From: a virus | IMG/VR virus record: IMGVR_UViG_3300046318_000156 | Span: 1 to 35,263 of that record | Length of the DNA stretch: 35,263 bases | Strand: one strand, 5' to 3' | Shown: positions 1-24,298 of the stretch, one piece after another | Numbering within the stretch: position 1 is the first letter of the stretch | How the letters are laid out: every line of letters starts with the position of its first letter | Made by a program: the position numbers and the translations under genes | Notes under the pieces: model-generated | Seen by the model: only the letters and a program-made list of their open reading frames with translations | Told to the model about the DNA's origin: nothing | Database searches by the model: none

Positions 1-316
1 GGATAGGTGCGTAACACTGCGGGCGGGGTGTCATCCGGTCGTGATCTGGCAGAATTTGACCCACTCCCCCCTATTAGGGTGGGGGTCTATGTTTTAGGTG
101 GGGTTAGGTGGCTTGTAGGCGGTCGTTTAGGGTTGCTTATGAGCGTGAGTTCGTGGCCGTGTTTTCGTGGCGTGTACGGGCATCCTATGGCGTTTTAGGT
201 GCTTAGGGTATAAAAATAGGCCCTTTGGTGGGCCGGTGGTGGGGTTGTAGTGGCTTATCCGGGTAATGCTAAACCCCTAAGCGGTTAGGCCTAGGGGTTA
301 GCGGTGGAGCGGTTAG
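1..316. other. GC-rich non-coding left end
   Basis: I see no convincing gene here. The first 240 bases are G-rich on the plus strand with many TTAGG or TAGGT steps, and contain an imperfect hairpin of C and G runs at about 64-87. At 272-299 an 8-bp perfect stem (AACCCCTA paired with TAGGGGTT, 12-nt loop) lies just downstream of the leftmost minus-strand gene and could end that transcript, but it has no U tract. The stretch could also hold packaging or end sequences, because the terminase genes sit at the other edge of the window. That is inference. Confidence 0.45.
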
Positions 317-1979: not shown

Positions 1980-2717
1980 TTATCTCCCTTGTACGATTAG
2001 CGGCTCGTGGTCAATAGGGCAACCGTTACCGGCATGCCATTCATCGGATGGCTCCCACTCACGGGGCACGGTTAGCTCAATAAGCATGTCCGGCGTAGCT
2101 TGTGAGTCGGGTAATTCGTAGTAATTGACTTGATTATCGCAATAGTCGATAAAAAACTCACACTTGCTGCATCTAAGCGATGCATCACTTATGCCGCATA
2201 TTACCGACTCAATATCTCCCGTAAAAATAACCGGCTTAGTATATCCACCACGTACATCGCAACCTCCGTGAACTTGCAAGATAAGATATTCGGCATCGCC
2301 TAAGCTAAACGCCGTGCCCTGGATAGTTTGACTCAATAGGTCACCGTCAAAATTGTAGGTGTTGAACTCCCAGCGGCCACCCTCGTAATATCCTGAGTCA
2401 CTGGCAACCCCTAGTATGTCTAAAAATGTCTCGATGTTGTCACTCCATGATTCATTAGGTCGATCACCATCATATAAACGCCATGCAGCATCTAGGGCCG
2501 GAGCGTACTCCAAACGGTTATTTAGGTAATGGAATAGGTCGACCGTAATCTCACCATATTCATCTACAGTTCCGGCCGGTGCAGCTTCATAGTCTGCAAG
2601 TGTTTTGCCGGCGTTACGCTCCCAGTGACGGCCATAGTAGCCGCCAGAGTCGAGCATCGAGCCGCCGGTGTTTTCGGTTAGCATGTCGGCTATTTTTTGA
2701 GCGGTTATGTTAGTCAT
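1980..2717 (-). CDS. Hypothetical protein with cysteine cluster, 245 residues
   Basis: The largest of the left-end unknown genes. The N-terminal half is rich in glycine, tyrosine and aspartate (TGGSMLDSGGYYGRHWERN). A later segment reads like a folded sensor or inhibitor domain (LGDAEYLILQVHGGCDVRGGY), followed by a cysteine group (CSKCEFFIDYC) that could bind zinc. The start motif (ITAQKIADMLTENTGGSMLDSGGYYGRHWE) appears in other actinophage proteins as far as I recall, always without an assigned role. It follows the 47-residue membrane protein in the same operon. Confidence 0.75.
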   Translation of the reverse strand: MTNITAQKIADMLTENTGGSMLDSGGYYGRHWERNAGKTLADYEAAPAGTVDEYGEITVDLFHYLNNRLEYAPALDAAWRLYDGDRPNESWSDNIETFLDILGVASDSGYYEGGRWEFNTYNFDGDLLSQTIQGTAFSLGDAEYLILQVHGGCDVRGGYTKPVIFTGDIESVICGISDASLRCSKCEFFIDYCDNQVNYYELPDSQATPDMLIELTVPREWEPSDEWHAGNGCPIDHEPLIVQGR

Positions 2718-2720
2718 TTT

Positions 2721-2864
2721 TTATGCCCTAATAGCTAGGCCGATTCCGGCAGCGGTTACGATTACGGCCAGCGTTGCGATGGCGTTTTGGTTAGTTGTGT
2801 TGTTGACGTAAACGATTAGCACACTTAGGCCGGCCACTATGCCGGTAAACTTTAGCAACTTCAT
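2721..2864 (-). CDS. 47-residue membrane protein
   Basis: A small protein with two predicted membrane segments: residues about 4-20 (LKFTGIVAGLSVLIVYV) and about 28-45 (NAIATLAVIVTAAGIGLAIR), joined by a short polar turn with NNTTN. An AAAGGGG ribosome site lies six bases before the ATG. It is the first gene after the strong leftward promoter at 2910-2939, so it is probably the best expressed of this block. It could be a holin-like or superinfection-type membrane protein, but nothing specific identifies it. Confidence 0.7.
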   Translation of the reverse strand: MKLLKFTGIVAGLSVLIVYVNNTTNQNAIATLAVIVTAAGIGLAIRA

Positions 2865-2909: not shown

Positions 2910-2939
2910 AGGATAGTAAGAAAACGCTACAAGTGTCAA
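2910..2939 (-). promoter_or_regulatory. Leftward promoter of the left-end operon
   Basis: On the minus strand a perfect TTGACA (2934-2939) is followed after 18 bp by TATCCT (2910-2915). The expected start of transcription is near 2903, about 40 bases ahead of the 47-residue membrane protein gene. The 18-bp spacing matches other promoters in this window. Confidence 0.7.
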
Positions 2940-2972
2940 GTTTGAACATTCATTTATTTATAACATTTAGGT

Positions 2973-2985
2973 AACGGTAACCGTT
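2973..2985. promoter_or_regulatory. Operator-like inverted repeat
   Basis: AACGGT and ACCGTT form a perfect 6-bp inverted repeat around a single base, about 35 bp upstream of the leftward promoter's -35 box. It is a candidate binding site for a dimeric regulator such as the winged-helix protein encoded at 7.7-8.0 kb. No direct evidence links the two. Confidence 0.35.
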
Positions 2986-3105: not shown

Positions 3106-3126
3106 TTATCCACAGGGTTATCCACA
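3106..3126 (+). promoter_or_regulatory. Two tandem DnaA boxes
   Basis: Two exact TTATCCACA nine-mers start at 3106 and 3118, in direct orientation with a 12-bp period. This is the strongest known form of the bacterial DnaA box. In a phage without a recognisable replication initiator, the pair suggests recruitment of host DnaA to an origin here. Confidence 0.65.
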
Positions 3127-3136
3127 AGGTTGCTTA

Positions 3137-3152
3137 TCGAACACTTGTTTGC
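3137..3152. promoter_or_regulatory. Degenerate LexA box
   Basis: The sequence has an exact left half-site TCGAAC, four bases, then GTTTGC, which differs at two positions from the consensus right half-site GTTCGA. It lies 45 bp from the perfect box and only 11 bp after the second DnaA box. Confidence 0.4.
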
Positions 3153-3181
3153 ATAAAAACGTGTCAAGAGGGGCTTGATAT

Positions 3182-3197
3182 TCGAACACCTGTTCGA
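3182..3197. promoter_or_regulatory. Perfect actinobacterial LexA (SOS) box
   Basis: TCGAAC-ACCT-GTTCGA is an exact match to the SOS box consensus of mycobacteria and corynebacteria, TCGAAC(N4)GTTCGA. A perfect minus-strand TTGACA (3163-3168) lies 13 bp away, so LexA bound here could cover a leftward promoter, though I could not find a good -10 box at a normal distance. Chance occurrence of the full 12 defined bases in 35 kb is very unlikely. Confidence 0.75.
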
Positions 3198-3226
3198 GTC
3201 GTTTTTTCCCGTTTTTTGCGATTTTC

Positions 3227-3271
3227 AACCAGATTTTAACCAGATTTTTACCAGATTTTTAAACCAGATTT
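3227..3271 (+). repeat. AT-rich array of 11-bp CCAGATTT repeats
   Basis: Four copies of (A/T)ACCAGATTT start at 3227, 3238, 3249 and 3262, so the period is 11, 11 and 13 bp, close to one helical turn. The last copy is also the final codons and stop of the HNH gene. More copies lie inside the following genes. The array could be iterons, an unwinding element, or slippage products. Confidence 0.7.
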
Positions 3272-3585
3272 GACCGCTTACGATTACAAGTCCGGTGTGC
3301 AGCTCTCAACTCGGCAGTCGAACCAGATTCTGCCGGAATCACGTGATCTGCCTCCCAAGGATCCCCAGCACGCAGACCCTCACCACACAACCAACACACC
3401 AAAGCACTAGCACGAACAGCCGCAGCTCTAGCCTTATAAGAACCAGAATACTGACCAGAATTTTTCTTAACCTCAGCCCGTTTAATGTCGTGAAGTTTTT
3501 TAACCAGATTTTCGTGATAGTCGCACCGATTACCACCAGAAGTTAGCACACCACAATCGGCACAAGGTTTAGGAAAACGACCCAT
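3259..3585 (-). CDS. HNH endonuclease with N-terminal zinc finger
   Basis: A 108-residue protein. Cys8, Cys11, Cys21 and His24 form a small zinc finger. Residues 64-101 form an HNH motif: CWLC (64-67), DH at 80-81, His97, Cys100 and Asn101. HNH proteins of this size cut or nick DNA; phage ones can be homing enzymes or help packaging. This one lies far from the terminase, at the edge of the origin-like region. Its ATG shares one base with the stop of the FmdB-type gene (TAATG). Its final codons (SNLV) are part of the CCAGATT repeat array. Confidence 0.85.
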   Translation of the reverse strand: MGRFPKPCADCGVLTSGGNRCDYHENLVKKLHDIKRAEVKKNSGQYSGSYKARAAAVRASALVCWLCGEGLRAGDPWEADHVIPAESGSTAELRAAHRTCNRKRSNLV

Positions 3586-3758
3586 TAGTTCTTATCCTTG
3601 CCCCAACCAGATCCCTTAAAGGTTACGGCTCCAACACCGTACTGGCGTGTCATCAATTTGCCACACTCACACCGGCACTGAAACCCATCAATTTCTTTGA
3701 AACCAACGGTTAGCGTATTTGTTTTCCCACACTCACACTTAAAGTCATAGACCGGCAT
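3585..3758 (-). CDS. FmdB-type zinc ribbon protein
   Basis: A 57-residue protein beginning MPVYDFKCECGK with a second pair CRCECGK and ending FKGSGWGKDKN. The opening M-P-x-Y-D-F-x-C-x-x-C-G, the second CxCxCG and the glycine-tryptophan-lysine end are typical of the FmdB/CxxC zinc-ribbon family, thought to be regulatory or structural zinc proteins. The start overlaps the preceding stop (TAATG), and its stop overlaps the HNH start the same way, so it sits in a tightly coupled operon. Confidence 0.8.
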   Translation of the reverse strand: MPVYDFKCECGKTNTLTVGFKEIDGFQCRCECGKLMTRQYGVGAVTFKGSGWGKDKN

Positions 3759-3970
3759 TATTTACCTGCTTGTTTTGGTTTAGCAATGTGTGTGTCTAGA
3801 TGTGCTTGTAAATGATTTTCCGCAATCAAACTAAAACAAGTGCGACAGGTGTAACCAGATTGAGCTTTAGAAACTACTCCACCGGCACCAGTTTTCTTTT
3901 TACCGCCAGAGACTTTGACTAAAAGTATTTCTTCATCAATGTAAAATTTGTTTATTTTTGACTTAAGCAT
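3758..3970 (-). CDS. Small C2H2 zinc-finger protein
   Basis: A 70-residue basic protein starting MLKSKINKFYIDEE. I chose the ATG at 3970 because it lies in the last codons of the upstream gene (eight-base overlap ATGCTTAA); the same frame is open further upstream but would overlap that gene by more than 100 bases. Near the C-terminus, CRTC followed by 11 residues and HLDTH makes a classical C2H2 finger. The glycine-lysine linker (SGGKKKTGAGG) ahead of it is probably flexible. DNA or RNA binding is a reasonable inference. Confidence 0.75.
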   Translation of the reverse strand: MLKSKINKFYIDEEILLVKVSGGKKKTGAGGVVSKAQSGYTCRTCFSLIAENHLQAHLDTHIAKPKQAGK

Positions 3971-4208
3971 TTTGCTTCTTTCCAGCTCGTAGCAACCTTG
4001 CGTAGTGAGTCCCACACAAGTTTTTTGCGTGAACAGGAGCTCCGCACTCGGTACAGGTTTTTGAACCAAATGCTTCATATACAGCCATTTGAATAGCGGG
4101 ATCTAAAGTGATACCACCAGATTTTCTCAAGCGGTAAGCTGCCATGTAGTGTGCTTGACACAACCCACGAGTGTATTTGTTTCTACTGCAATTCTCTACT
4201 GAACACAT
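3963..4208 (-). CDS. Double zinc-finger protein, CxxxxC...CxxHY type
   Basis: An 81-residue protein with two copies of the same zinc motif: CSVENC followed by TRGLCQAHY near the start, and CTECG followed by AKNLCGTHY near the end. The motif (C-x2/4-C, about 10 residues, G-L-C-x-x-H-Y) is found alone or beside HNH domains in many phages. The gene at 6.0-6.2 kb has one copy and may be a relative. An AAGGGGATTT ribosome site precedes the ATG. Confidence 0.75.
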   Translation of the reverse strand: MCSVENCSRNKYTRGLCQAHYMAAYRLRKSGGITLDPAIQMAVYEAFGSKTCTECGAPVHAKNLCGTHYARLLRAGKKQNA

Positions 4209-4221
4209 AAATCCCCTTTTC

Positions 4222-5400
4222 TCACAGTTTATATACAGTTCCCTTAAAATGCAAACCCTTAATCAACTCAAAACAAGTAATGCCCGTACTAGAGTCGTTT
4301 CCTGACATTAGACGGAACCAATCGGAACCGTTATCACTAGTCGAGGCTTGAACCCACCACCGCGATCCGCCGTTGTGTGCCTGACCAATCTCCTCAACCC
4401 TGAGGTGGTGAAAATGACCAGAAATGAAAGTCGTGAAATTTGAGCATGGCCCTTGACCAAATGCTTGCTTCTCCAGCCACTGCTGGACGCTGTTAGGGCG
4501 TTTAGCCTGATGACCGTGTGCCACTGCCAAAACGTGAAAGTTATCGCCCCACACGTCAAATGCCAGCGATTCATCATACGGCTGTGGGATCAGGTAGTTG
4601 ACATCCATACCGAGTTCGGTTGTTAGACGGCGTAACTGCTGAAGAATAACAATGCCCCAATCATCCAAACCTGGCTTACCAACAGTCTGACCGTTGAACC
4701 GAAACTGGCAGTGATTAGACGCTACAGAGGCGTAAGTGACGGGTGCGTATTTGTGAGCAATCTTGATCAGATCCCACATCAGAGCAGCTGCGAGATCCAC
4801 CTGTTGCATCGGGCTTAGGTCGTTCGATTCCAACTGAGCCATAGAAGCTGCGTTAGATACAGACTCGATAATGTCACCAGCGTCAACAATTATGACCTTC
4901 TCATACTTACCCGCTTTAAGTTTTGCCTCAATAGCCTGATACGACTCAAACACACGAGCAACCAGATCTTGAGTGTTACCCCTAGACCCAACCTTGCCAA
5001 CTTGAAAATCAGCAGCAACAATAACAAAAGCCTTACCATTGTTTAAAGTCTTATCCGATAATAACGGCTTCTTTACTGCTCTTTTAGCCTGAGCATACAA
5101 AGTAGGCAAATCAGATTCAAGAACACCCTTCTTACGGAACCGGAAACGGTACGCCGTCAACCACTGAGGATCCAGCGGGAAAGGTCGGGCAACCTGCCAT
5201 CGGCTAGTTCTAGGTTCTCCAACAATCTCAATCTCAGCCGGATCAAATCCAGCCTCAACTAAGAACTTGTCAAAGTCAGGTTTCTCATCAGGTAAAAAGC
5301 CTTGCGTAGTGGCTTCACCCTCAGACCCGTTGAACTCGACAGCAGGTCGCCAGTCTTTAGGAACATCAACCTTAGGGGCTGGTGTCAAATCTTCGAGCAC
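4222..5400 (-). CDS. Calcineurin-like metallophosphoesterase
   Basis: A 392-residue protein with the ordered motifs of the metallophosphoesterase superfamily: DFQ (131-133), DAGD (173-176), SNH (228-230), HGH (295-297) and GHFH (328-331). The first motif has glutamine where DxH is usual, which is seen in some phage members. The superfamily includes Mre11/SbcD nucleases, so a role in DNA processing is likely, but cyclic-nucleotide or protein phosphatase activity is not excluded. The first 110 residues are proline-rich and probably a separate region. I prefer the GTG start at 5400, eight bases after GGAAAG; a TTG two codons earlier is possible. The start overlaps the end of the gene for the HTH-like protein. 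Confidence 0.85.
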   Translation of the reverse strand: MLEDLTPAPKVDVPKDWRPAVEFNGSEGEATTQGFLPDEKPDFDKFLVEAGFDPAEIEIVGEPRTSRWQVARPFPLDPQWLTAYRFRFRKKGVLESDLPTLYAQAKRAVKKPLLSDKTLNNGKAFVIVAADFQVGKVGSRGNTQDLVARVFESYQAIEAKLKAGKYEKVIIVDAGDIIESVSNAASMAQLESNDLSPMQQVDLAAALMWDLIKIAHKYAPVTYASVASNHCQFRFNGQTVGKPGLDDWGIVILQQLRRLTTELGMDVNYLIPQPYDESLAFDVWGDNFHVLAVAHGHQAKRPNSVQQWLEKQAFGQGPCSNFTTFISGHFHHLRVEEIGQAHNGGSRWWVQASTSDNGSDWFRLMSGNDSSTGITCFELIKGLHFKGTVYKL

Positions 5401-5615
5401 GGGCAACGCTTTCCACGATGACGTTCAATCACCGTTCTAGACAAAGTAACTCCCCTAGCACCAAGAGCTGCAACCAAAGCATTAATAGACCAAGCAGGGT
5501 CAGCAATAGCGTTCAGGAGAATCTCCCCATCTTCTTTACTTAATTCTTTTGCTCGTTCAGCAACTGTGCAAACCCTAACCTTCACAGGTGGGGTCATCCC
5601 TTTTAAAATGCTCAT
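5385..5615 (-). CDS. HTH-like DNA-binding protein with CPC tail
   Basis: A 76-residue protein. The region ILLNAIADPAWSINALVAAL followed by VTLSRTVIERHRGKRCPC looks like a helix-turn-helix: the second part is the recognition helix ending in R-H-R-x-x-x-C-x-C. From memory, similar small proteins lie just ahead of metallophosphoesterase genes in other actinophages, as here. AGGG lies seven bases before the ATG. The last 16 bases overlap the phosphoesterase start, so the two are likely made together. Confidence 0.7.
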   Translation of the reverse strand: MSILKGMTPPVKVRVCTVAERAKELSKEDGEILLNAIADPAWSINALVAALGARGVTLSRTVIERHRGKRCPCSKI

Positions 5616-5624
5616 AGTTCAACC

Positions 5625-5813
5625 CTATCGGTTAACAGGAAATTCCTCTAGTAATGCTTCACACAAATTTCTTGTAGCCTCATACGGGGCATAGCTGCGT
5701 TGTTCCTCTTTCAGAATCGCCCACAAATGGTGGCGAATGTGATCAAAGTCTTCTGACCAAACCAAATTAGGTGACTCAAGTAGTTCTATTGCTTGCTCAA
5801 TCACGGGATCCAT
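5625..5813 (-). CDS. Hypothetical small helical protein
   Basis: A 62-residue acidic protein, mostly alpha-helical by composition (MDPVIEQAIELLE, then HHLWAILKEEQR and LCEALLEEF). There is no recognised family. It overlaps the end of the upstream 54-residue gene by 17 bases. Confidence 0.6.
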   Translation of the reverse strand: MDPVIEQAIELLESPNLVWSEDFDHIRHHLWAILKEEQRSYAPYEATRNLCEALLEEFPVNR

Positions 5814-5961
5814 AAATTTCCTTCACAGCCTTCTCCATCTGATCAACAGACTCGGCACACTCATCAATAATCTTGTTCAGGCTTTTCAACCCAATTTCTA
5901 GCAACTGAAGTCGCATCTCTACCATTAGCAGAGCCGCTTCCCTTTCAGTGATGTCTTTCAT
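5797..5961 (-). CDS. Hypothetical 54-residue helical protein
   Basis: The frame runs from an ATG at 5961 to TGA at 5797 and encodes an amphipathic helix-rich protein (MKDITEREAALLMVEMRLQL then ESVDQMEKAVKEIYG). AAGGAGA lies five bases before the ATG, a good ribosome site. It overlaps both neighbours, as is usual in this block. Function unknown; a short coiled coil is likely. Confidence 0.65.
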   Translation of the reverse strand: MKDITEREAALLMVEMRLQLLEIGLKSLNKIIDECAESVDQMEKAVKEIYGSRD

Positions 5962-6034
5962 TGTTTCTCCTTATAAGTTCAATAATTACTACGCCTACAG
6001 CCAGTCCGGTGCAGATCATAAACCAGCCGATCAT
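5945..6034 (-). CDS. 29-residue single-pass membrane protein
   Basis: ATG at 6034 overlaps the preceding TGA (ATGA). The peptide has one hydrophobic segment (MIGWFMICTGLAVGVVIIEL) followed by a basic and polar tail (IRRNNERHH), so it would insert with the tail inside. The end of the frame contains the ribosome site and start of the 54-residue gene. It may be a real micro-protein or simply a coupling leader. Confidence 0.5.
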   Translation of the reverse strand: MIGWFMICTGLAVGVVIIELIRRNNERHH

Positions 6035-6225
6035 GCAAGCCTCAGATGGTTTTTGACCCACAGCCAGTAATCGTCTTTTTCTGCATCGTTTAAAGCGACT
6101 GTTGGTGAGTGCGGTTTAGTTAGGTGTCTGTTCTCACGCATCCAGGCTCCGTAATGAGTTCTACAAAGCCCTCTAGCGTTGTTCTCATACTCGCAACCGT
6201 CTACAGAGCATTTAGGTCTAGCCAT
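6031..6225 (-). CDS. Single zinc-finger protein, CxxxxC...CxxHY type
   Basis: A 64-residue protein with CSVDGC, then ARGLCRTHYGAW, the same zinc motif seen twice in the gene at 3963-4208. The C-terminal half is a charged helix with tryptophans (KDDYWLWVKNHLRL). GGCAGAAACAA precedes the ATG, and the start lies inside the end of the gene before it. Confidence 0.7.
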   Translation of the reverse strand: MARPKCSVDGCEYENNARGLCRTHYGAWMRENRHLTKPHSPTVALNDAEKDDYWLWVKNHLRLA

Positions 6226-6457
6226 TTGTTTCTGCCTTGATAAGTGCGATTAAATCGCTTAGATCTGCAATTGAATTACCTGTTTCATCCAATACCGAAC
6301 CGCTACCCTCAGTGCGTTCTTCTAGCAACTTGATAATGCGTTCCTGTTCTTGGTCTACAAGCCCACCAAAGATAAGTCCACAACAACCATCGCAACCGTG
6401 AACACCCATCTGATGACCTACGCCGTGACAACACTCCAGCTCATGCGGTCTAACCAT
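6218..6457 (-). CDS. Cys/His-rich member of the EQERIIKLLEE family
   Basis: A 79-residue protein. The first 28 residues are rich in cysteine and histidine (ECCHGVGHQMGVHGCDGCCG), suggesting zinc binding. Then comes QEQERIIKLLEERTEG, and a C-terminal DLIALIKAETNG. The motif and the tail recur in neighbouring genes. A GAGGGAGAAACAA ribosome site lies within the last codons of the upstream gene. Function unknown. Confidence 0.65.
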   Translation of the reverse strand: MVRPHELECCHGVGHQMGVHGCDGCCGLIFGGLVDQEQERIIKLLEERTEGSGSVLDETGNSIADLSDLIALIKAETNG

Positions 6458-6728
6458 TTGTTTCTCCCTCTTTAAATACTTTCCAACATCCCTTAGCCAA
6501 TTCTCCTAATGCCCTGGCAGAGTTATAAGCCTCTTGACGCAAAGCCTCAACAGCGTCTTGCCAACCCTTTTTATAAGCCTGTTTATACTCTCTGCTGCCT
6601 TTATTGACAGACCTAGCCTCAACTAATTGTTCCTCTAATTGTGCAATGCGTTGATTACGCTGGGTCAAAGTAGTCTGCAAACCAGCGTTTACAATTTGCA
6701 GATTCTCTAACCTGTCCTCAATTTTCAT
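6450..6728 (-). CDS. Coiled-coil protein, 92 residues
   Basis: I place the start at the ATG at 6728 because it overlaps the preceding stop by four bases and has GGGAGA at a good distance; the open frame upstream is probably shadow. Residues 1-45 form a coiled coil (IEDRLENLQIVNAGLQTTL, then RIAQLEEQLVEARSV). A charged segment and a helix (KKGWQDAVEALRQEAYNSA) follow. Its last codons (FKEGETNG) hold the ribosome site for the next gene. Function unknown. Confidence 0.65.
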   Translation of the reverse strand: MKIEDRLENLQIVNAGLQTTLTQRNQRIAQLEEQLVEARSVNKGSREYKQAYKKGWQDAVEALRQEAYNSARALGELAKGCWKVFKEGETNG

Positions 6729-6907
6729 TTTGTTTCTCCCTTGATAAGTTCGATTAGTTCCTCTGACCCAAAACTTTCCCACGCTGGCGGAAACCATTCA
6801 ATTTGTCTCCAAATAGTGCTGAAATCATATTCTTCTAACAACTTGATAATGCGTTCCTGCTCCCAAGCAAGACCAGCCCTGAATCCTTTGGTGTATTCGG
6901 TATCCAT
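6725..6907 (-). CDS. EQERIIKLLEE-family small protein
   Basis: A 60-residue protein starting MDTEYTKGFRAGLAWEQERI, then IKLLEEYD, with a variable tryptophan-rich middle and a C-terminal ELIELIKGETK. The pattern G-x-x-x-G-x-x-x-E-Q-E-R-I followed by a LIKGE end is shared with at least two other genes nearby. The ATG shares a base with the nrdH stop (TAATG). Confidence 0.65.
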   Translation of the reverse strand: MDTEYTKGFRAGLAWEQERIIKLLEEYDFSTIWRQIEWFPPAWESFGSEELIELIKGETK

Positions 6908-7155
6908 TAATTCTCACCAAGACTCTTGATGTGGCGAGCAAGTGACTGAATCTTGTCCAACCGGAAACCAGACCAAGCCTTAGTATCAGTAGTCACAATA
7001 GGAGCTGCAAGAAGCCCCTGAGCCTTAAAGCCCTCCAAAACTAATGGGTTCTCCTCAAGAGACTGCTCCTCATAAACAATGCCCAACTTATCAAACTGCT
7101 TCTTGGTCATGTCACACTGCACACACATACTCTTAGTCCAAATAGTTACCTTCAT
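6907..7155 (-). CDS. nrdH: NrdH-type glutaredoxin
   Basis: An 82-residue thioredoxin-fold protein. It opens MKVTIWTKSMCVQCDMTKKQ: the active-site CVQC is at 11-14. Later TxAAPIV (with the cis-proline) and WSGFRLDKI match the NrdH signature WSGFRPDKI with leucine for proline. NrdH passes electrons to class Ib ribonucleotide reductase and is typical of actinobacteria and their phages. No phage reductase is present in this window, so it would serve the host enzyme. The start overlaps the preceding stop (TAATG). Confidence 0.9.
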   Translation of the reverse strand: MKVTIWTKSMCVQCDMTKKQFDKLGIVYEEQSLEENPLVLEGFKAQGLLAAPIVTTDTKAWSGFRLDKIQSLARHIKSLGEN

Positions 7156-7343
7156 TAGTTTCCTCCCGAAATAATCTTGTCCCGCACCTGACGCAACAAC
7201 ACAATGTACCCACCAGGCAAATCCTCATGAATCATGTCCTCAACCAAATTAGCGATACGCATACGCTCATCAGCCCTAGCCTCAGACATACCCTCCTCAA
7301 TAGCCCGAAGGAAACCTTGCTTACTTACCTGTAGCAGTTCCAT
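7155..7343 (-). CDS. Small helical protein related to the EQERI family
   Basis: The 62-residue product starts MELLQVSKQGFLRAIEEGMS, followed by EARADERMRIANLVEDMIHE. I chose the ATG at 7343, with AGGAG seven bases before it inside the end of the gene before it. The E-R-M-R-I-A-N-L segment occupies the same place as E-Q-E-R-I-I-K-L in its neighbours, so distant kinship is possible. Function unknown. Confidence 0.6.
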   Translation of the reverse strand: MELLQVSKQGFLRAIEEGMSEARADERMRIANLVEDMIHEDLPGGYIVLLRQVRDKIISGGN

Positions 7344-7506
7344 TTTCCAACTCCTCAATCAAACTCTTTACAGCTGCGGTCTTAGACTTCATAGGCTTCA
7401 ACGTGGTCAACACCTTAGTCTTTATTTCTAGTGTTGCTCGTTGTTCGGCTGAAGCAATAGCGTCATCAAACTGTGCTTTCACAGCATCAAAAATAGGTGT
7501 GCTCAT
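7321..7506 (-). CDS. Hypothetical small lysine-rich protein
   Basis: A 61-residue protein (opening MSTPIFDAVKAQFDDAIASA) with a basic middle (KTKVLTTLKPMKSKTAAVK). The ATG at 7506 overlaps the preceding TGA by four bases and has AAAGGGAG upstream; the frame is open further upstream but would overlap more. Function unknown, likely helical. Confidence 0.6.
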   Translation of the reverse strand: MSTPIFDAVKAQFDDAIASAEQRATLEIKTKVLTTLKPMKSKTAAVKSLIEELENGTATGK

Positions 7507-7709
7507 TTTTCTCCCTTTACAAAATTCCAAGCATCTTTATCATTTACAAGACCTTTGACAAAAGCCAAACGCCTACGCAAAGCCTCCTGAATAGGTTTAG
7601 GATTCTCTGCAATGTATTGCTCTAACAATTTATTTATACGATCTTGTTCTGCCTCAGTACCACGCCAAAAAGCATCAAGTTCACGCTCAGTCATGCCATC
7701 AAACTTCAT
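7503..7709 (-). CDS. EQDRINKLLEQ-family small protein
   Basis: A 68-residue protein of the same family as the gene at 6725: MKFDGMTERELDAFWRGTEA, EQDRINKLLEQ, and a C-terminal NFVKGEK. I chose ATG 7709 because it forms an ATGA overlap with the winged-helix gene; MTEREL five codons later is an alternative. The KGE end doubles as the AAAGGGAGA ribosome site for the next gene. Confidence 0.65.
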   Translation of the reverse strand: MKFDGMTERELDAFWRGTEAEQDRINKLLEQYIAENPKPIQEALRRRLAFVKGLVNDKDAWNFVKGEK

Positions 7710-7999
7710 CGTCTGTGCCCCCAAATCAAAGCCTTACGACCAAAACGAGACTGACCCTCACCAACATCAATAACAAAACCCTTATCAACCAAATGATGAC
7801 GAGCCGTACGAATAGTAGAAGGTGAAGCCAACGGAGCAGTACCAAAATTCATCAGCTGCTCATACTGAGGAACCAAATCCTCATCAATCATCGAAGTCTT
7901 AAGAAGTTCATAAATCACAGTCTGAACCTCAGTAAAATTCTTAACAGACCTAGCTGCATCATGCGATGTGTAAGGATCTGTTTTTCTTGCTCTAGGCAT
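7706..7999 (-). CDS. Winged-helix DNA-binding protein
   Basis: A 97-residue protein. It opens MPRARKTDPYTSHDAA and then has QTVIYELLKTS (helix 1), an ASPSTIRTARHHLVDKGFV recognition helix and wing (IDVGEGQSRFGRKALIWG). This layout, with D-P-x-T-S-x-x-A-A, is common in phage proteins of the MarR/DpnI-type winged-helix class that probably regulate transcription. It is the first gene after the promoter at 8027-8056, so it may control this operon. AAAGGGAATAA precedes the ATG. Confidence 0.8.
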   Translation of the reverse strand: MPRARKTDPYTSHDAARSVKNFTEVQTVIYELLKTSMIDEDLVPQYEQLMNFGTAPLASPSTIRTARHHLVDKGFVIDVGEGQSRFGRKALIWGHRR

Positions 8000-8026
8000 T
8001 TATTCCCTTTCTTTTGCCGTAAACCC

Positions 8027-8056
8027 AATCTACGGTAAGAAAGCGGTGCAAGTCAA
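8027..8056 (-). promoter_or_regulatory. Leftward promoter of the small-gene operon
   Basis: Minus-strand TTGACT (8051-8056) and TAGATT (8027-8032) are 18 bp apart. A short hairpin with the stem CCGTA/TACGG overlaps the -10 box and the probable start of transcription near 8020. It lies in the only gap (8000-8072) between the RusA-type gene and the winged-helix gene. Confidence 0.6.
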
Positions 8057-8072
8057 ACTCCGACACGAGCCG

Positions 8073-8501
8073 TTACACAACCGTTATAAACACCTTGCAA
8101 CCAGGGGTCGGGTAAGTATCAGTAGTCGTCCCACACCAACGCTTCTTAGCCACAATGTCCACGATCAAAGAATCATCCACAATAGCCCCTGCACGAGTCA
8201 ACGAATCACCCACAGCACGAATGTAATGATCAAGATCAGGTTTAGAGCCAGGATAAACAGGATGCTTAGGTTTAGCAGGGCGGGCAATGAAAAACGTAAC
8301 CTCTAAACGAATCGGCTGATCAAACGGAACAATCTGCTCCAACGAGTGCATAGCCTGACGAGCTGCCTCAGTAACCGCCAAACGCCACTCCGGAAGCCTC
8401 TTATTAGCCTCAACGAGAACAGCCCTCCCACCACGCACATAAGCCGTTTTAGAACCTTGTGGGGCAGGAGAGCCGTCAACGAGAAAAAATAAATCCTTCA
8501 A
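8073..8501 (-). CDS. RusA-type Holliday junction resolvase
   Basis: A 142-residue endonuclease of the RusA family, which cuts four-way DNA junctions made by recombination or replication. It opens with the typical VDGSPAPQGSK. The metal-binding aspartates lie in KPDLDHYIRAVGDSL (Asp89 and Asp91) and IVDDSLI (Asp110), followed by the family's lysine pair KK (119-120). It starts directly at the SSB stop and ends the recombination operon, so it would resolve branched products before packaging. Confidence 0.92.
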   Translation of the reverse strand: MKDLFFLVDGSPAPQGSKTAYVRGGRAVLVEANKRLPEWRLAVTEAARQAMHSLEQIVPFDQPIRLEVTFFIARPAKPKHPVYPGSKPDLDHYIRAVGDSLTRAGAIVDDSLIVDIVAKKRWCGTTTDTYPTPGCKVFITVV

Positions 8502-8909
8502 TTAAAAAGGTGCATCATCCATGTTAATAGCAATAGGAGTCCAAGACTCAGGAACCAAATCCTCAGGCTTAAACTCAACCTTCTTCTGCTCCCGTACAAC
8601 ACGCTCAATCTTGTTAGCCACAACATCCAACGCAACACCTAACGATCCATCACGCTTCGCATAAGTCCTAAACACAAACGAACCATGAACCTCAACAGGC
8701 GTACCCTTCACAAACTCAAAAGGATTCAACTCCTCAAAAGAAGTCACATTAAACCACATAGTCTCGCCATTCTCCCACTCACCAGAAGCGTTCTTCTTAG
8801 AAGGAGTAGACCCAACACGTAACACATAATACATTTTGCCAGCCTTAGAAACCTTAGACTCAACATCAGCCCCAAGATTCCCACGCACAACAATTTCACA
8901 CTTAGCCAT
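8502..8909 (-). CDS. ssb: Single-stranded DNA-binding protein
   Basis: A 135-residue OB-fold protein: VVRGNLGADVESKVSKAGK, YVLRVGSTPS, WENGETMWFNVTSF, VKGTPVEVHGSF follow the SSB pattern. It ends NMDDAPF, the acidic hydrophobic tip through which SSBs bind partner enzymes. I chose MAKCEI at 8909, with GAAAGAG upstream; an upstream ATG at 8936 in the same frame would add nine residues. It sits between the annealing protein and RusA genes, as in many recombination modules. Confidence 0.88.
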   Translation of the reverse strand: MAKCEIVVRGNLGADVESKVSKAGKMYYVLRVGSTPSKKNASGEWENGETMWFNVTSFEELNPFEFVKGTPVEVHGSFVFRTYAKRDGSLGVALDVVANKIERVVREQKKVEFKPEDLVPESWTPIAINMDDAPF

Positions 8910-8953
8910 AGCAGCTCTTTCCATAGTCCTGAACAAGTCAGGGTACTACAACA

Positions 8954-9241
8954 CTACTCCCCATCAATGACATCTACAAGTTCAATATGATGCGGATTCA
9001 CACAATCCCGATGACCACACAACCGAACCCCAGGCAACAACAAACCACCATTCACCATCGGATTATCCTCCAAATCAAAATCACCACGCCAAGGCACACA
9101 CCGACTAGACCCATACTGAATACTCAACGCCGGACGCATACGACACGACACACACAACACCACCTGCTGACGGCGTTTAACCAGAGGAACCTCCCAAGAG
9201 AGACCACACCTCTTACACAACACACGATTATCATCCACCAC
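8954..9241 (-). CDS. Zinc-ribbon / HNH-like protein
   Basis: A 95-residue protein with a GTG start. Two CxxC pairs (CKRC at 9-12 and CVSC about 20 residues on) form a zinc ribbon. The C-terminal end, LCGHRDCVNPHHIELV, matches the last part of HNH domains in actinophages (C-x-N-P-x-H-x-x-L), but the first histidine part is weak. It may be a degenerate HNH protein or a DNA-binding protein. No ribosome site precedes the GTG, and a TGA lies five codons upstream in frame, so its start is uncertain. It lies directly downstream of the long non-coding stretch. Confidence 0.65.
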   Translation of the reverse strand: MVDDNRVLCKRCGLSWEVPLVKRRQQVVLCVSCRMRPALSIQYGSSRCVPWRGDFDLEDNPMVNGGLLLPGVRLCGHRDCVNPHHIELVDVIDGE

Positions 9242-9248
9242 ACAAGCG

Positions 9249-9582
9249 TAGCGTAATCACAGGGAAAGGCTCAAGAGGGTAGAAATGGCCATGTTGCGAC
9301 CATCTCAAACCACAGGTATAAGGACTGTCAGGTTTTCTAATGTGCTTATCCTCACGGGTAAAGCCATCTACGCCATATGTTTAATCAGCTACAAGGATGC
9401 TAGGTAGATACGTTTTAGCACCGCCAATTAAACTCTGTTCTACTCTCAAGAACTCTTACCTGATCTAAGGCTTCACAATTACAGGTACGCCAAAGAGACA
9501 CCATCTGACGGCCTCTATCTCCGACTGTGAATCGAGAGCTGGGTTTTAAAGTAGCCCAACGGTTAAATAACCTCTACTTGAA
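9249..9582 (-). ncRNA. Candidate structured non-coding RNA
   Basis: A strong promoter would start a minus-strand transcript near 9582, which then runs about 340 nt without any supportable frame. Complementary segments are frequent: 9574-9579 with 9549-9554, enclosing a 5-bp hairpin (9561-9572); 9555-9560 with 9538-9543, which crosses the first pair and makes a pseudoknot; 9526-9531 with 9472-9477; 9404-9409 with 9366-9371; and a hairpin 9307-9335. It could be a long leader of the downstream genes or a free-standing RNA. I could not match it to a known family, and no terminator separates it from the next gene. Confidence 0.5.
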
Positions 9583-9588
9583 GATTTG

Positions 9589-9618
9589 ATTATAGGTGAT
9601 AAAAAACGAAGTGTGCAA
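9589..9618 (-). promoter_or_regulatory. Strong promoter ahead of the non-coding stretch
   Basis: Minus-strand TTGCAC (9613-9618) and a perfect TATAAT (9589-9594) are 18 bp apart. It sits just after the HNH gene stop at 9620. It is the best -10 box of the right kind in the recombination region and would drive the RNA and the genes from 9241 to 8073. Confidence 0.7.
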
Positions 9619-9619
9619 G

Positions 9620-9958
9620 TTAAAAGTGAAAGTCGTAGTTTGGCAGCTCTGTTCTACCAAAATCATCATCCAGCAAAAACCATTTGCCGTTATGCCAAAC
9701 AGGGATAGCAGCTGCGTCCTGCCAGTGTTCCAGTTTCCAACCCATGCCCTTAGCCAACTTAGCGGCATCAGCGTTCATCTCAATCTGGCAATTAAACCAA
9801 GAACAGAGCACAATTATATTGGATGGCTTGTCCTTCTTATGAGAGCCACCCATACCCCTATTAGAACGGTGCTGAGGAACAAGCGTGTTGTCGTTTGTGC
9901 CACAGTGCAAACACTCAAGATCACGGTCAAGGAACTTAGCCCACTGCTTCTGACTCAT
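9620..9958 (-). CDS. HNH endonuclease
   Basis: A 112-residue protein. CLHCG near residue 18, then LVPQHRSNRGMGGSHKKDKP, NIIVLCSWFNCQIE and further helices match small HNH endonucleases of actinophages (motif P-x-H-R-x-x-R-G-M-G-G). I chose the ATG at 9958, which overlaps the preceding stop by four bases. It probably nicks DNA. It lies directly upstream of the strong promoter and non-coding stretch, so it could be a free-standing homing gene. Confidence 0.8.
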   Translation of the reverse strand: MSQKQWAKFLDRDLECLHCGTNDNTLVPQHRSNRGMGGSHKKDKPSNIIVLCSWFNCQIEMNADAAKLAKGMGWKLEHWQDAAAIPVWHNGKWFLLDDDFGRTELPNYDFHF

Positions 9959-10170
9959 TCTTCCCACGGTGGCTCCGGACTCCTAGCAGGATCAATCAAA
10001 CCAGTAGCCATAAAACCAATCGTGGCAGTCTCAACCCGTGAACTATCAATAATGGCAAGGTTGCCCTCAGGGCGACACTTGTGATTAGTACGCCACTGAT
10101 TCAACAACTTAATCTCATCAGACCGTTCAGCCTGGAAACTAGCACCGCACGAACACGCTTCAGAGATCAT
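9955..10170 (-). CDS. Zinc-ribbon protein
   Basis: A 71-residue protein with SEACSCGASFQAERSDEI near the start and HKC further on, which makes a CxC...HxC zinc site seen in many phage proteins. The C-terminal end is proline-rich (DPARSPEPPWEE). I chose the ATG at 10170, inside the end of the membrane micro-gene; earlier TTG and GTG codons in frame exist. Function unknown. Confidence 0.65.
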   Translation of the reverse strand: MISEACSCGASFQAERSDEIKLLNQWRTNHKCRPEGNLAIIDSSRVETATIGFMATGLIDPARSPEPPWEE

Positions 10171-10291
10171 CAACTTCACCAAAAGTTTCTATGACTTTCA
10201 TCTCGCACCAAAATAGGAAAGCAAGAAAAGATGCGGTTGTAGCCCAGATACCAATTATCAGAGCTGCAATCCACAACAACAAAAGCCACAT
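10160..10291 (-). CDS. 43-residue membrane protein
   Basis: ATG at 10291 shares a base with the stop of the gene before it (TAATG). The peptide starts with one long hydrophobic segment (MWLLLLWIAALIIGIWATTA, SFLAFLFW) and ends with an acidic tail (GEVDDL). This is too long for one standard helix and may span twice. It overlaps the next gene by 11 bases. Its location among recombination genes gives no clue to its role. Confidence 0.6.
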   Translation of the reverse strand: MWLLLLWIAALIIGIWATTASFLAFLFWCEMKVIETFGEVDDL

Positions 10292-10641
10292 TAGCGAAGA
10301 ACCTTGAGTTCCGTTTCAACCATGCGAGCAATAGTTTGAGTGCTCATCTGAGCCAACTCCAACTGCTTCAACTTCAACTTAATTCGGTTGTATTCAGCCC
10401 TAGCCAAATCAGCCATCAACTTATCATCAGCCGACTTCAACTTAGCAATAGCCTCTTTATCTTTTACAGTCCCATCAGTGGTTTCCATAAACGTCAAAGC
10501 CAAAGTTCGTTCATACTTTGCCTCAGCATCAGCCAACTTCACCTCAGCATCATACAAAGCACCAACACCCTTAGCTGCTTCCGCTTGGATTCTCTGTAAT
10601 TCTTCGATGATCCCACTCGGAGTAGTATTCGCCACTTTCAA
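10291..10641 (-). CDS. Coiled-coil protein of the recombination operon
   Basis: A 116-residue, mostly helical protein. It has a long heptad-like segment (LYDAEVKLADAEAKYERTLAL), the sequence TDGTVKDKEAIAKLKSAD and a C-terminal helix (LKQLELAQMSTQTIARMVET). Proteins with the T-F-x-x-T-D-G-T-V-K-D-K-E-A and LKQL-x-LAQ segments commonly lie beside annealing proteins in phages, so an accessory role in recombination is a fair guess. It overlaps the upstream gene by 71 bases. Confidence 0.7.
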   Translation of the reverse strand: MKVANTTPSGIIEELQRIQAEAAKGVGALYDAEVKLADAEAKYERTLALTFMETTDGTVKDKEAIAKLKSADDKLMADLARAEYNRIKLKLKQLELAQMSTQTIARMVETELKVLR

Positions 10642-10786
10642 CCCTTTCTAAACGTTCCATACCAGTTTCGTGAATGATGTCAGCCATAGTTCCGTTAGCA
10701 CCCCTAGCAGGATTAACCAACTCGCCGTACAACTCACGCAGTTCGATAATGCTACTTAGCAGAATCCTTAGATCCTTTATGTCCAT
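10571..10786 (-). CDS. Hypothetical protein bridging annealing-protein and coiled-coil genes
   Basis: A 71-residue frame that fills the gap between its two neighbours, overlapping the first by 35 and the second by 71 bases. It opens MDIKDLRILLSSIIELRELY, a plausible amphipathic helix, and continues GELVNPARGANGTMADIIHE. No ribosome site is clear. The overlaps are larger than usual here, so the start or the gene itself may be wrong. Confidence 0.5.
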   Translation of the reverse strand: MDIKDLRILLSSIIELRELYGELVNPARGANGTMADIIHETGMERLERVESGEYYSEWDHRRITENPSGSS

Positions 10787-11309
10787 TACCCAGTTCCTTG
10801 ATCTTGTTCAGAACGTCCTCTGATGCTTTAAGCCTACTAGCCTCAACAAACAATGCACGTAAGCCGTCTAGGTCTTCTTTCCAAGCCAAATCTTCAGCCA
10901 TCTTTAGCCAGTCACGTGTCGGGGCAGGTGTCACACCACGCTCGGCTTTAGCCATCTCCTCACGAGTAGTCCGGCGGTTACCGCTATACCCAGCGTTAGC
11001 CAAGGCTCGCCCAATCGCACTGCTCTCACATGTTTCGAGTGCCGCTGTCTTTTGTGCCATTCCCACGCCATCAATCTCAAACGCTAAACCAGTGGCTTTC
11101 AGATACCAGCCGTCAGAACGCAAAGCGACCTCAGCCATGTCATCAGGGTAAGGCAACCAAATCTCTGCCTGAACAACCCAAGTAGAAACCTGACGATCCT
11201 GAAGCGTAGTCAGATTCTTTGTAATCACACGCATAAGCGGGTGGTCTTTGTAAGCACGGTGTAGACGTTGCTCAACAGTTTCATAATCTTGCAAGTTAAA
11301 ATTAGCCAT
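10752..11309 (-). CDS. Single-strand annealing protein (ERF/Rad52-like)
   Basis: A 185-residue protein. The core LETCESSAIGRALANAGY matches the signature of phage single-strand annealing proteins of the ERF/Sak group (E-T-x-x-S-A-I-G-R-A-L-A). Ahead of it are VVQAEIWLP and WYLKATGLAFE, the beta strands of the same fold. The C-terminal third is helical and charged, a likely partner-binding part. It works with the exonuclease encoded upstream: the nuclease exposes single strands, this protein pairs them. I chose ATG 11309, seven bases after GGGGGAT; an ATG at 11318 is possible. Confidence 0.85.
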   Translation of the reverse strand: MANFNLQDYETVEQRLHRAYKDHPLMRVITKNLTTLQDRQVSTWVVQAEIWLPYPDDMAEVALRSDGWYLKATGLAFEIDGVGMAQKTAALETCESSAIGRALANAGYSGNRRTTREEMAKAERGVTPAPTRDWLKMAEDLAWKEDLDGLRALFVEASRLKASEDVLNKIKELGNGHKGSKDSAK

Positions 11310-11505
11310 GGTGTTCATCCCCCATAATGTCCTCTAGTATTCCATCAGCAAAGTGCCAAAGATCATTACAAGAATCATCCTTGCCACATTGTTTTAAATC
11401 TTTCATTCTTGCTTTTAAATAATGTATGACCGCAGCTTGTTCTGTAAAACGACCAGCATTGAAACCAGCAGCGAGAATTTTCTGCTCACGCTTTTTAGTA
11501 ATCAT
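11302..11505 (-). CDS. Hypothetical basic helical protein
   Basis: A 67-residue protein opening MITKKREQKILAAGFNAGRF and ending DGILEDIMGDEHHG, with two cysteines (CGKDDSC) in the middle. It overlaps both neighbours by four to eight bases, so it is coupled within the exonuclease operon. Its N-terminal half has the same A-x-x-x-G-x-x-x-G character as the small helical proteins further left. Function unknown. Confidence 0.6.
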   Translation of the reverse strand: MITKKREQKILAAGFNAGRFTEQAAVIHYLKARMKDLKQCGKDDSCNDLWHFADGILEDIMGDEHHG

Positions 11506-11684
11506 CCAAGTCTCAATTCGTTTAAACCTGGGCGGAACTCACGCTTCACAAATCTAAAAATAACAACCTTGCCCAGATCTGTTTCCATTTTTACCAGACG
11601 TTCCATGTCTGTCTCACGAACTTCAATAATGGTTCCCTCAACATTGTTGATAGTGGTCTTTTGACCTACTTCATAATCTTCCAT
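11502..11684 (-). CDS. Hypothetical small beta-rich protein
   Basis: A 60-residue protein: MEDYEVGQKTTINNVEGTII, EVRETDMERLVKMETDLGKV, then a basic end. It has the strand pattern of a small SH3 or OB-like barrel (VEGTIIEVRE, KVVIFRFVKR). I chose the ATG at 11684, which shares a base with the preceding stop (TAATG). Function unknown. Confidence 0.6.
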   Translation of the reverse strand: MEDYEVGQKTTINNVEGTIIEVRETDMERLVKMETDLGKVVIFRFVKREFRPGLNELRLG

Positions 11685-11938
11685 TAGTCCCATTCCTTCA
11701 TCTTTGCCAAACATGACACAACATCGAGTATTGATTCCAGAACTTCTTTTGAGTCAATCTCAAGTTCAAATTTGTGTTTCTGACCTGCCCAACGACCAGT
11801 CAAAAGAAAATAGCTATGAGATGCATCAATAATTTCTTTACCTGCATCAAAGGCAAAATTTAAATCAAAATCAAAAAGACCTGATTCATTTATTGATCTG
11901 GCTAAATCATATAGTCGTTCTATTGTTACTTCTTCCAT
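11684..11938 (-). CDS. Hypothetical acidic protein next to exonuclease
   Basis: An 84-residue protein of unknown function: helix, then strands (FDFDLNFAFDAGKE, SYFLLTGRWAGQKHKFELEI), then a C-terminal helix (SILDVVSCLAKM). The ATG directly follows the exonuclease stop, with AAAGGGAACTAA before it. Acidic partners of phage exonucleases exist, but nothing here shows such a role. Confidence 0.65.
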   Translation of the reverse strand: MEEVTIERLYDLARSINESGLFDFDLNFAFDAGKEIIDASHSYFLLTGRWAGQKHKFELEIDSKEVLESILDVVSCLAKMKEWD

Positions 11939-12820
11939 TTAGTTCCCTTTCTTTTTCCATTGAATGTACGGTGCACCAACACCACGCTGTGTGCGGAACA
12001 AAACAATCTCATCATTGATTGCCCCCCATTTAGCAGACCCCATTGCGTCCAGTGTTCTTGATTGTAGTTCCTGATACTCGGTCTTAGCAACCTCTAATTT
12101 GTCCTTAGCCAAAGCCAAATACATACCCAAATCGCCTAGTTCTTCTATGTCGTCCTCGTGGATTTCAGGCTTGAGTCGTCTCATAGTTTCATAGGTTGAA
12201 TCTGAGCCATCCCACACAGGTTGAGACCCAGCCTCCACATGATCCCAGAAACGGCGTAGAGCTGCCAGATTAGACTCAGCCAAGAACTGGTCAAACTCCA
12301 CATCAAAAGTCTTGTAGCGTCCACCACAGAGGGCTACAACGGTAGCGTGTTGAATTTGGAACAACCACAAATACGACTGGATCTGTGCAATGTAGTTAGG
12401 TGGAATGTCAGACGCTGACTCCCAAAAATCTGCTGTCGTCTTAACCTCAATCAGATGCAACACACCCTTATCGTCACGGTAGAACGCATCAGGATTCGCC
12501 AACAACCAAGGATGATTCTTAGACGTATAAGACCCAGACTTAAACACATCAAAAGTCGGATTCTCCTGCTGAAACAACTCCAACAACGGATCCTCCAACA
12601 ACGTACCCAAACGCATAGCAGTAGACGCTTCACTATTAGGAATCTCACCGCGAACTTTGTAATAACAAGTAATAGGAGACTCCCAAGGGGACAAACCTAA
12701 AGCTGCACCAATCTGCGAACCACCAATACGCCCCTTACGTTGCTCATACCACTCAGGCGACTGATTCTCAAAAAACCCAAGAAACTCAGCCTTCTCCGAA
12801 GTAACTTTGCCCTGTCTCAT
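11939..12820 (-). CDS. YqaJ-type viral exonuclease
   Basis: A 293-residue nuclease of the YqaJ/lambda-exonuclease (PD-(D/E)XK) group. The motif order is RIGGSQIGAALGLSPWESP (31-49), YYKVRGE (53-59), LLANPDAF with Asp111, IEVKTT with Glu125 and Lys127, and YIAQIQSYLW (143-152). Asp111, Glu125 and Lys127 are the expected catalytic residues. It digests one DNA strand to feed the annealing protein. AGGGAAAAATG is a good ribosome site. It is the first gene of the leftward recombination operon, divergent from whiB. Confidence 0.92.
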   Translation of the reverse strand: MRQGKVTSEKAEFLGFFENQSPEWYEQRKGRIGGSQIGAALGLSPWESPITCYYKVRGEIPNSEASTAMRLGTLLEDPLLELFQQENPTFDVFKSGSYTSKNHPWLLANPDAFYRDDKGVLHLIEVKTTADFWESASDIPPNYIAQIQSYLWLFQIQHATVVALCGGRYKTFDVEFDQFLAESNLAALRRFWDHVEAGSQPVWDGSDSTYETMRRLKPEIHEDDIEELGDLGMYLALAKDKLEVAKTEYQELQSRTLDAMGSAKWGAINDEIVLFRTQRGVGAPYIQWKKKGN

Positions 12821-23322: not shown

Positions 23323-23758
23323 CTATGAGTCTATTCTACCGTTGAAACGTAGTCTTTCTTTGATAGCCGTACTGGAGATGCCCTTAGTGTACGGAATGTA
23401 AACCAGCCCAATACCACGCTCATCTAACCAGTCCTGGTCGAACTGCATTTGGGCATAATAGTCACGCCTAGCCCAATCCGAGCCAATAACAATCAAATCA
23501 GGATTACAAAGGCTGATAGCAACCCGACTATCAACGCCACCCACGTTAGGCACAACCCGATCAACCCAGCGACATCCCAATAAGACATCTTTGCGTTCTT
23601 GATAAGAGATAACAGGTCTTTTACCTTTGTATTTTTCAATGAACTCATCCTCGTTTAGCGAAACAGTCACAGAGCCAAACTCTGCACATCTCCTCAGGAA
23701 CTCCACGTGTCCCGCATGGAACAGGTCAAAACGTGCCTCCGGTGTACACCTTAAGCAT
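23323..23758 (-). CDS. Cytidylyltransferase-like enzyme requiring a +1 frameshift
   Basis: The gene starts at ATG 23758, inside the last codons of the endonuclease VII gene. It reads MLKVYTGGTF and meets TGA (23726-23728). Shifting +1 at TTT-TGA-C continues DLFHAGHVEFLRRCAEFGSV, so the join recreates the nucleotidyltransferase motif TGGTFDLFHAGH with the catalytic HxGH. The rest has NPDLIVIGSDWARRDYYAQM and ends with the signature ISSTAIKERL. The 144-residue product resembles TagD-type glycerol-3-phosphate or related cytidylyltransferases, which activate a small polyol or sugar phosphate with CTP. It precedes two glycosyltransferases in gene order. Without the shift the enzyme lacks its active site; an assembly error or a pseudogene is the alternative. 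Confidence 0.8.
23725..23740 (-). promoter_or_regulatory. RF2-like +1 frameshift signal
   Basis: On the minus strand GGAGG (23736-23740) lies four bases before TTT-TGA-C (23725-23731). In the bacterial RF2 gene a Shine-Dalgarno-like run lies three bases before CTT-TGA-C and drives about 30-50% shifting. The geometry here is nearly the same, and the tRNA can re-pair perfectly because TTT slips to TTT. Confidence 0.6.
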
Positions 23759-24269
23759 TGGCATCACCCCCTCTAGCACCATTCAAATAATTAATGGCAC
23801 TTGTTAATTTATCGTCTACTCTACCTAAAAACGAGTTGCATGATTGACATAGTAATCCCCTGACGCATTTGCCACAAGTTTTTGTACCAGGGCAACAAGA
23901 GTGGTCATGGTCTACTGACAAATATGTGCGACTAGGTTTTTTAAAGCAAATAGCACACACTCCATTTTGCGTTTCTAGCAACTGCATGTACATATATTTA
24001 GTTAATTTATACTTTTTATAAATTGTTTGCCAGCGACTTTTTTCTGGATCTTTAGCAAAAGATTTTTTCTTATATTCATTATTTTTACGTTTTAACTCAG
24101 CAAACTTTTCAGGATTATTCTCTTTTAACCGCTGTCTATAGGATTTTTGATATTCCCAAGCCTTACTTGATGCGTATTGCTTACGTTTTATTGATTTTGC
24201 TTCACGGCAAATGTCGCATCGGCAACCAGCGTTATAGCCGCCAATTCCATGTGTCCTTATAATGTCCAT
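23751..24269 (-). CDS. Endonuclease VII-like recombination endonuclease
   Basis: A 172-residue protein, AT-rich compared with its neighbours. Its N-terminus (RTHGIGGYNAGCRCDICREA) is a zinc finger seen in phage HNH proteins. A basic helical linker (30-90) follows. The C-terminal part has CAIC (105-108), DHDH (120-123) and LLCQSCNSFLG (139-149), the His-Me finger of the endonuclease VII family, which cuts branched DNA. Its low GC and position between glycosyltransferases suggest a mobile insertion. The ATG lies six bases after a TATAAT, so the transcript is probably leaderless. Confidence 0.88.
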   Translation of the reverse strand: MDIIRTHGIGGYNAGCRCDICREAKSIKRKQYASSKAWEYQKSYRQRLKENNPEKFAELKRKNNEYKKKSFAKDPEKSRWQTIYKKYKLTKYMYMQLLETQNGVCAICFKKPSRTYLSVDHDHSCCPGTKTCGKCVRGLLCQSCNSFLGRVDDKLTSAINYLNGARGGDANA

Positions 24270-24275
24270 AATGAA

Positions 24276-24284
24276 ATTATAGCA
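24276..24284 (-). promoter_or_regulatory. Extended -10 promoter for the endonuclease VII gene
   Basis: TGCTATAAT on the minus strand is a perfect extended -10 motif, with no good -35 box. The predicted start falls on the ATG at 24269. It lies in the 29-bp gap after the glycosyltransferase stop, so the gene brings its own promoter. Confidence 0.65.
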
Positions 24285-24298
24285 TTACTTCAGGCTGG

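Follow-up and report, generated by a model that had tools for sequence, protein, structure and literature searches.

In E. coli, DnaA and LexA boxes are intermingled at uvrB, and the two proteins both regulate this gene and jointly repress it (PMC6015884). In the Betatectivirus GIL01, as outlined in the abstract of the published study, host LexA silences the phage together with a partner protein, gp7, and a LexA-repressed promoter has been mapped (PMC4551915). A search of the literature retrieved no paper in which a phage origin is described with both LexA and DnaA boxes. To our knowledge, the replication start of small phages of freshwater Actinobacteria that lack a detectable polymerase, helicase or initiator is not known. 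The element analyzed here lies in a viral record of 35,263 bp (G000), which was used whole and is called the window below. It is best read as a host-factor control element with two to four putative boxes for host DnaA and two to three for LexA. Such a compact pairing of host oriC and SOS sites is a concrete, testable candidate for a link between phage replication or expression and the damage state of the host.

Genome and probable host

The window is an essentially complete actinophage genome. Fixed linear ends were considered and rejected because the sequence of a relative of nearly equal length (L003) continues over the junction, where the window ends meet to within a few bases; therefore, the record represents a near-closed circle cut at one point. 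The structural genes encode an HK97-type terminase, portal, protease and capsid, tail proteins and an endolysin. The tail region also carries a cluster of sugar genes (23323-26121), comprising a nucleotidyltransferase-like gene, a galactosyltransferase and a glycosyltransferase. The early block encodes a YqaJ/RecE-type exonuclease, an SSB, RusA, a second exonuclease (phrog_284) and HNH proteins. The preliminary description had seen no polymerase, primase, helicase or initiator gene, and searches of the window with Pfam and PHROGs agreed, finding none of these families and no helicase loader. The same searches gave no match to Rep, O or replisome families, so the initiator that an iteron-type origin would bring with it was not found, and no integrase family scored above the cut-off. 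A non-coding GGGTCAAATTCTGCCA stretch adjoining terS (window 30-70, minus strand) is strongly conserved at the end of L002 and in L046 and L221, and it is probably the cos region.

A WhiB gene in the window indicates an actinobacterial host, and relatives of the phage sit in Microbacteriaceae MAG bins; from these two observations, we infer a host among the freshwater Microbacteriaceae. This assignment is likely, with a single genus-level match that falls short of proof. A nucleotide search of phage records with the element region gave zero matches.

Composition of the element

The element is housed in approximately 390 non-coding bases between the early block, whose last gene encodes an HNH protein, and the right-arm block (Table 1). 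The change between two gene blocks noted previously at this position is real, and both blocks share one strand.

Table 1. Features of the element and its neighborhood, with positions in the window
Feature	Position	Strand	Remarks
phrog_11344 gene, function unassigned, opens right-arm block	1980..2717	-	family match
Short membrane-protein-like ORF (47 aa), first ORF past the element	2721..2864	-	read from sequence
Predicted promoter of next leftward block, TTGACA-18-TATCCT	2910..2939	-	partly conserved in relatives
GTTACC-N5-GTTATA pair upstream of predicted promoter	2957..2975	-	matches GTTATC-N5-GTTATC pairs before relatives' promoters
DnaA box 1, TTATCCACA, exact	3106..3114	+	conserved in L002, L003 (degenerate copies) and L046
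DnaA box 2, TTATCCACA, exact	3118..3126	+	starts 12 bp after the start of box 1; pair matches dnaA-dnaN pair of likely host genus
LexA box A, CGAACACTTGTTTG, one mismatch	3138..3151		perfect in L002 and L003
Imperfect inverted repeat TGTCAAG-N5-CTTGATA, between LexA boxes	3162..3180		TCAAGCCCC part invariant in four relatives
LexA box B, CGAACACCTGTTCG, perfect palindrome	3183..3196		45 bp from box A
11-bp-phased array (CCAGATTT), minus-strand unit AAATCTGGT(C/T)(A), 4 copies	3220..3271	-	TRF; copy number differs among relatives
Small HNH endonuclease gene, last of leftward early block	3259..3585	-	more scattered repeat copies within gene

The pair of exact DnaA boxes and the two LexA-type sites claimed in the preliminary description were both confirmed. 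In 200 Markov simulations of the window, exact DnaA boxes occurred 0.29 times on average, and two within 40 bp were never obtained; a third exact box, at 32858, is solitary. The pattern TTATCCACA-N3-TTATCCACA is present, in one copy each, in 6 of 23 genomes of one Microbacteriaceae genus, and all six matches are oriC, located between dnaA and dnaN. Over 23 bp, the phage pair AGTTATCCACAGGGTTATCCACA and the pair between dnaA and dnaN in a Microbacteriaceae MAG, AGTTATCCACAGAGTTATCCACA, differ at one base. The cluster of boxes matches that of the likely host, as would be expected of a DnaA-dependent origin.

The window has no GAAC-N4-GTT[C/T] sites other than LexA boxes A and B, and two LexA-like sites within 60 bp arose in 1 of the 200 simulations. 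Boxes A and B are 45 bp apart, as in L002 and L003, and the distance is 44 bp in L020 and L054. The LexA consensus CGAACANNTGTTCG was found, almost always once, in 22 of the 23 genomes of the same Microbacteriaceae genus, and in 21 of the 22 loci examined it precedes an SOS operon consisting of a small ORF (orf104) and dnaE2. In another Microbacteriaceae bin, this consensus is placed upstream of an imuA/imuB-like pair. The phage sites match the LexA box of the likely host, the feature by which a site of the host SOS regulon would be recognized. Judged by the oriC and the dnaE2 and imuA/imuB contexts, the phage element therefore combines the motif type of oriC with that of the SOS mutasome promoter.

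The array lies 100 bp from the DnaA boxes, and its final unit falls within the 3' end of the HNH gene. The AT-rich, helically phased stretch of four repeats described previously stands only in part. Four copies of ACCAGATT within 45 bp were not produced in any of 200 Markov simulations, and A/T-tract phasing at 10.8-11 bp peaks genome-wide at the array; therefore, curved DNA is predicted there. However, the repeats start at 3229, 3240, 3251 and 3264, with spacings of 11, 11 and 13 bp that are not strictly 11, and the AT content is only moderate (67%; 2.5% of 75-bp windows are equally or more AT-rich). A second AT-rich stretch, with 75% AT, is located at 2895-2969. The array has the phased direct repeats expected of an iteron-type origin. 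The ACCAGA motif has 34 plus-strand and 5 minus-strand occurrences, 11 of which fall in the 3-4 kb interval. Degenerate DnaA boxes were rejected as an identity for the array since the core conserved across phages is TGACC, not the DnaA consensus. Arrays phased at 11 bp with a TGACC/GGTCA core are present in unrelated phages (L218:1125-1151, L219:1354-1380, L220:5075-5101, L217:1650-1676 and L048:9915-9941; coordinates after orienting the array forward), and L218 additionally has a DnaA-box pair nearby.

The GC-skew analysis suggested in the preliminary description as a check on the origin went against it. Detrended cumulative skew has its maximum, which is the polarity of a terminus, at 3302 and its minimum at 12911, and no minimum is placed at the element. 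The relative G004 shows the same polarity (maximum at 32327 beside the element, minimum at 22640), and in G007 the skew changes at the array, not at HNH. Coding-strand third-position GC skew is +0.41 for 3259-12820 and -0.22 for 317-2717; the two blocks are co-directional, and the flip occurs at the element. The skew extremes in the window coincide with the end and the start of the leftward early block; therefore, transcription may cause them. They offer no support for a bidirectional origin at the element.

Conservation and recurrence

In all three close relatives that reach the element (L002, L003 and L046), the array, LexA boxes and DnaA boxes occur in identical order. The non-coding DNA beyond the DnaA boxes is far less conserved than the element, above all in L002 and L046, and array copy number is variable, most so in L003. 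L002 has three exact DnaA boxes, L003 one exact box and three with one mismatch, and L046 two exact boxes and two with one mismatch. With up to one mismatch allowed, DnaA-box clusters with oriC-like spacing recur only at this element across 534 kb of family sequence. In distant relatives, the array still directly follows the final stop codon of the block that precedes the right-arm promoters, and LexA boxes are retained in some; none of these distant members has DnaA boxes, although the early-gene set is largely shared. Many family members (L020, L025, L026 and L047 among them) have GTTATC-N5-GTTATC pairs approximately 20 bp upstream of TTGACA-type right-arm promoters, and the pair is a putative conserved phage promoter element. 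L002 carries an insertion of approximately 0.5 kb after the exonuclease gene, with an HNH homing-endonuclease-like ORF, which is absent from the window and L003.

The combination of LexA and DnaA sites was also sought in a viral collection. A scan for LexA pairs gave 38 stretches, five of which have exact DnaA boxes within 600 bp. Further scans, for tandem DnaA boxes and a LexA core no more than 30 bp to one side or the other, recovered 23 and 31 stretches. The composite stretches form approximately 16 groups, between which similarity around the element is undetectable. At LexA consensus positions outside the search pattern, 88 of 114 match, compared with approximately 27% expected (the p-value is nominal because some of the phages are related to one another); therefore, the LexA sites of the composites are real LexA-type boxes. 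Around an unbiased sample of 120 DnaA-pair loci from all hosts, LexA sites were not enriched over control motifs. The composite is therefore a minority type confined to a subset of phages, presumably actinobacterial ones. Association of DnaA pairs with iterons is only modest: p is approximately 1e-14 against random positions and approximately 5e-5 (17.5% versus 5% above threshold) once the controls were intergenic and the boxes had been masked. Absence of DnaB or PolA is not significantly commoner in composite-bearing phages than in controls (3/17 and 0/17, compared with 11/31 and 5/31).

Several individual loci may be mentioned. An unrelated 36.6-kb phage has four exact DnaA boxes and six LexA boxes in approximately 200 bp (L067:10124-10300). 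In L109, L189, L312 and L314, a composite lies approximately 0.5 kb upstream of a terminase-like gene and is divergent from an unknown gene. L052 and L079 have near-identical LexA-pair regions, one with and one without DnaA boxes, and form a natural presence/absence pair.

The recurrent pairing of a host oriC-type site with an SOS-type site across many phages is a more interesting result than the claim of an origin. It suggests that viruses bearing the composite might tie replication or gene expression to the replication starter and the damage alarm of the host. The composite also provides a sequence signature to look for in metagenomes. A bolder proposal, which we regard as unlikely, is that many unrelated actinophages share a portable oriC mimic with an SOS switch. 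It would allow an extrachromosomal, LexA-silenced carrier state without an integrase or a repressor of their own, and SOS cleavage of LexA would start host-driven replication.

Possible functions and comparison with known systems

The most likely reading, held tentatively, is a DnaA-dependent, SOS-gated origin or initiation-assist region. Host DnaA would bind the phage boxes, open the DNA at the element and load the host helicase; LexA would block this initiation until the host SOS response, and the array may bend the DNA or aid its opening. The origin under host DnaA proposed earlier keeps the arrangement of the host-family oriC, its conservation in relatives, the match to the SOS box and the lack of a detectable initiator or replisome. 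It loses on the polarity of the skew, on the DnaA boxes missing in distant relatives and on an array that is not outstandingly AT-rich for an unwinding element. Because of the skew and the missing boxes, a purely transcriptional switch is a serious, though less probable, contender. In such a switch without origin function, DnaA and LexA would regulate intergenic promoters and time the right-arm genes, and perhaps an antisense transcript, to the SOS and replication state. The co-regulation of uvrB is a precedent (PMC6015884), the intergenic element precedes both a sigma-70-like promoter and the right-arm block, and the compositional change at 3302 falls at the end of the early leftward block. 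The composites of other phages, located between divergent genes or upstream of terminase, are also in keeping with a switch. However, the boxes are approximately 165-290 bp upstream of the recognizable promoter and do not overlap it. Only one promoter-like match has a LexA box in its spacer; it is on the plus strand (TTGCTT-N16-TATAAA in L002, a weaker CATAAA in the window) and is not conserved in L003 or L046. A simple operator needs fewer than two to four DnaA boxes with oriC spacing.

Titration loci such as datA offer another model. Replicating phage genomes would act as decoys for host DnaA, shutting down host initiation, and for LexA, raising the SOS response. Consensus-quality sites for both proteins do occur in one place, and both the oriC pair and the LexA consensus are near-unique per genome in the likely host genus, so tens of phage copies would be expected to compete strongly. 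Each phage genome, however, has only two to four boxes, and in close relatives these keep a fixed spacing and stay next to the array, which points to an assembled complex more than to a sponge. We consider a decoy improbable. It is also improbable that the array is a separate device (a packaging site for the small terminase, a fork barrier or an end-of-operon signal), with only the DnaA/LexA part directed at the host. The idea of a packaging site came from L218, L219 and L220, three unrelated phages whose TGACC-core arrays directly precede terminase genes. In the family, the array comes after the final stop codon of the early block, and this position, like a skew maximum that fits a terminus, would also suit a separate device. 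Packaging is weakened by the distance of approximately 3.5 kb from the array to terS and the likely cos region beside it, and by L217, whose array is approximately 10 kb from terminase. Moreover, the HK97 small terminase recognizes one 15-bp site close to cos instead of an array (PMC11331095).

Among the described systems, GIL01 resembles the window in that its control region also carries several host LexA boxes, and no integrase was found in the window. In GIL01, gp7 and a mapped LexA-repressed promoter are described, whereas LexA control in the window is predicted from the sites; the abstract on GIL01 makes no mention of DnaA boxes, which the window element has (PMC4551915). The uvrB promoter region likewise has DnaA and LexA boxes in one region; however, it is the promoter of a chromosomal SOS gene, and the window element is a phage intergenic region with a repeat array (PMC6015884). 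Direct repeats accompanied by DnaA-box sequences are shared with the ori/pO region of lambda (PMC3985674) and with the origins of iteron plasmids (PMC4980987). Lambda ori needs the phage O protein and iteron plasmids need a Rep initiator gene, whereas neither was detected in the window. Compared with the Microbacteriaceae oriC, which is of the dnaA-dnaN type, the phage element is without a dnaA gene, has two boxes instead of a larger set, contains inserted LexA boxes and shows a GC skew of the wrong polarity. Nevertheless, the two have in common tandem exact DnaA boxes, a 12-bp spacing and near-identical flanks.
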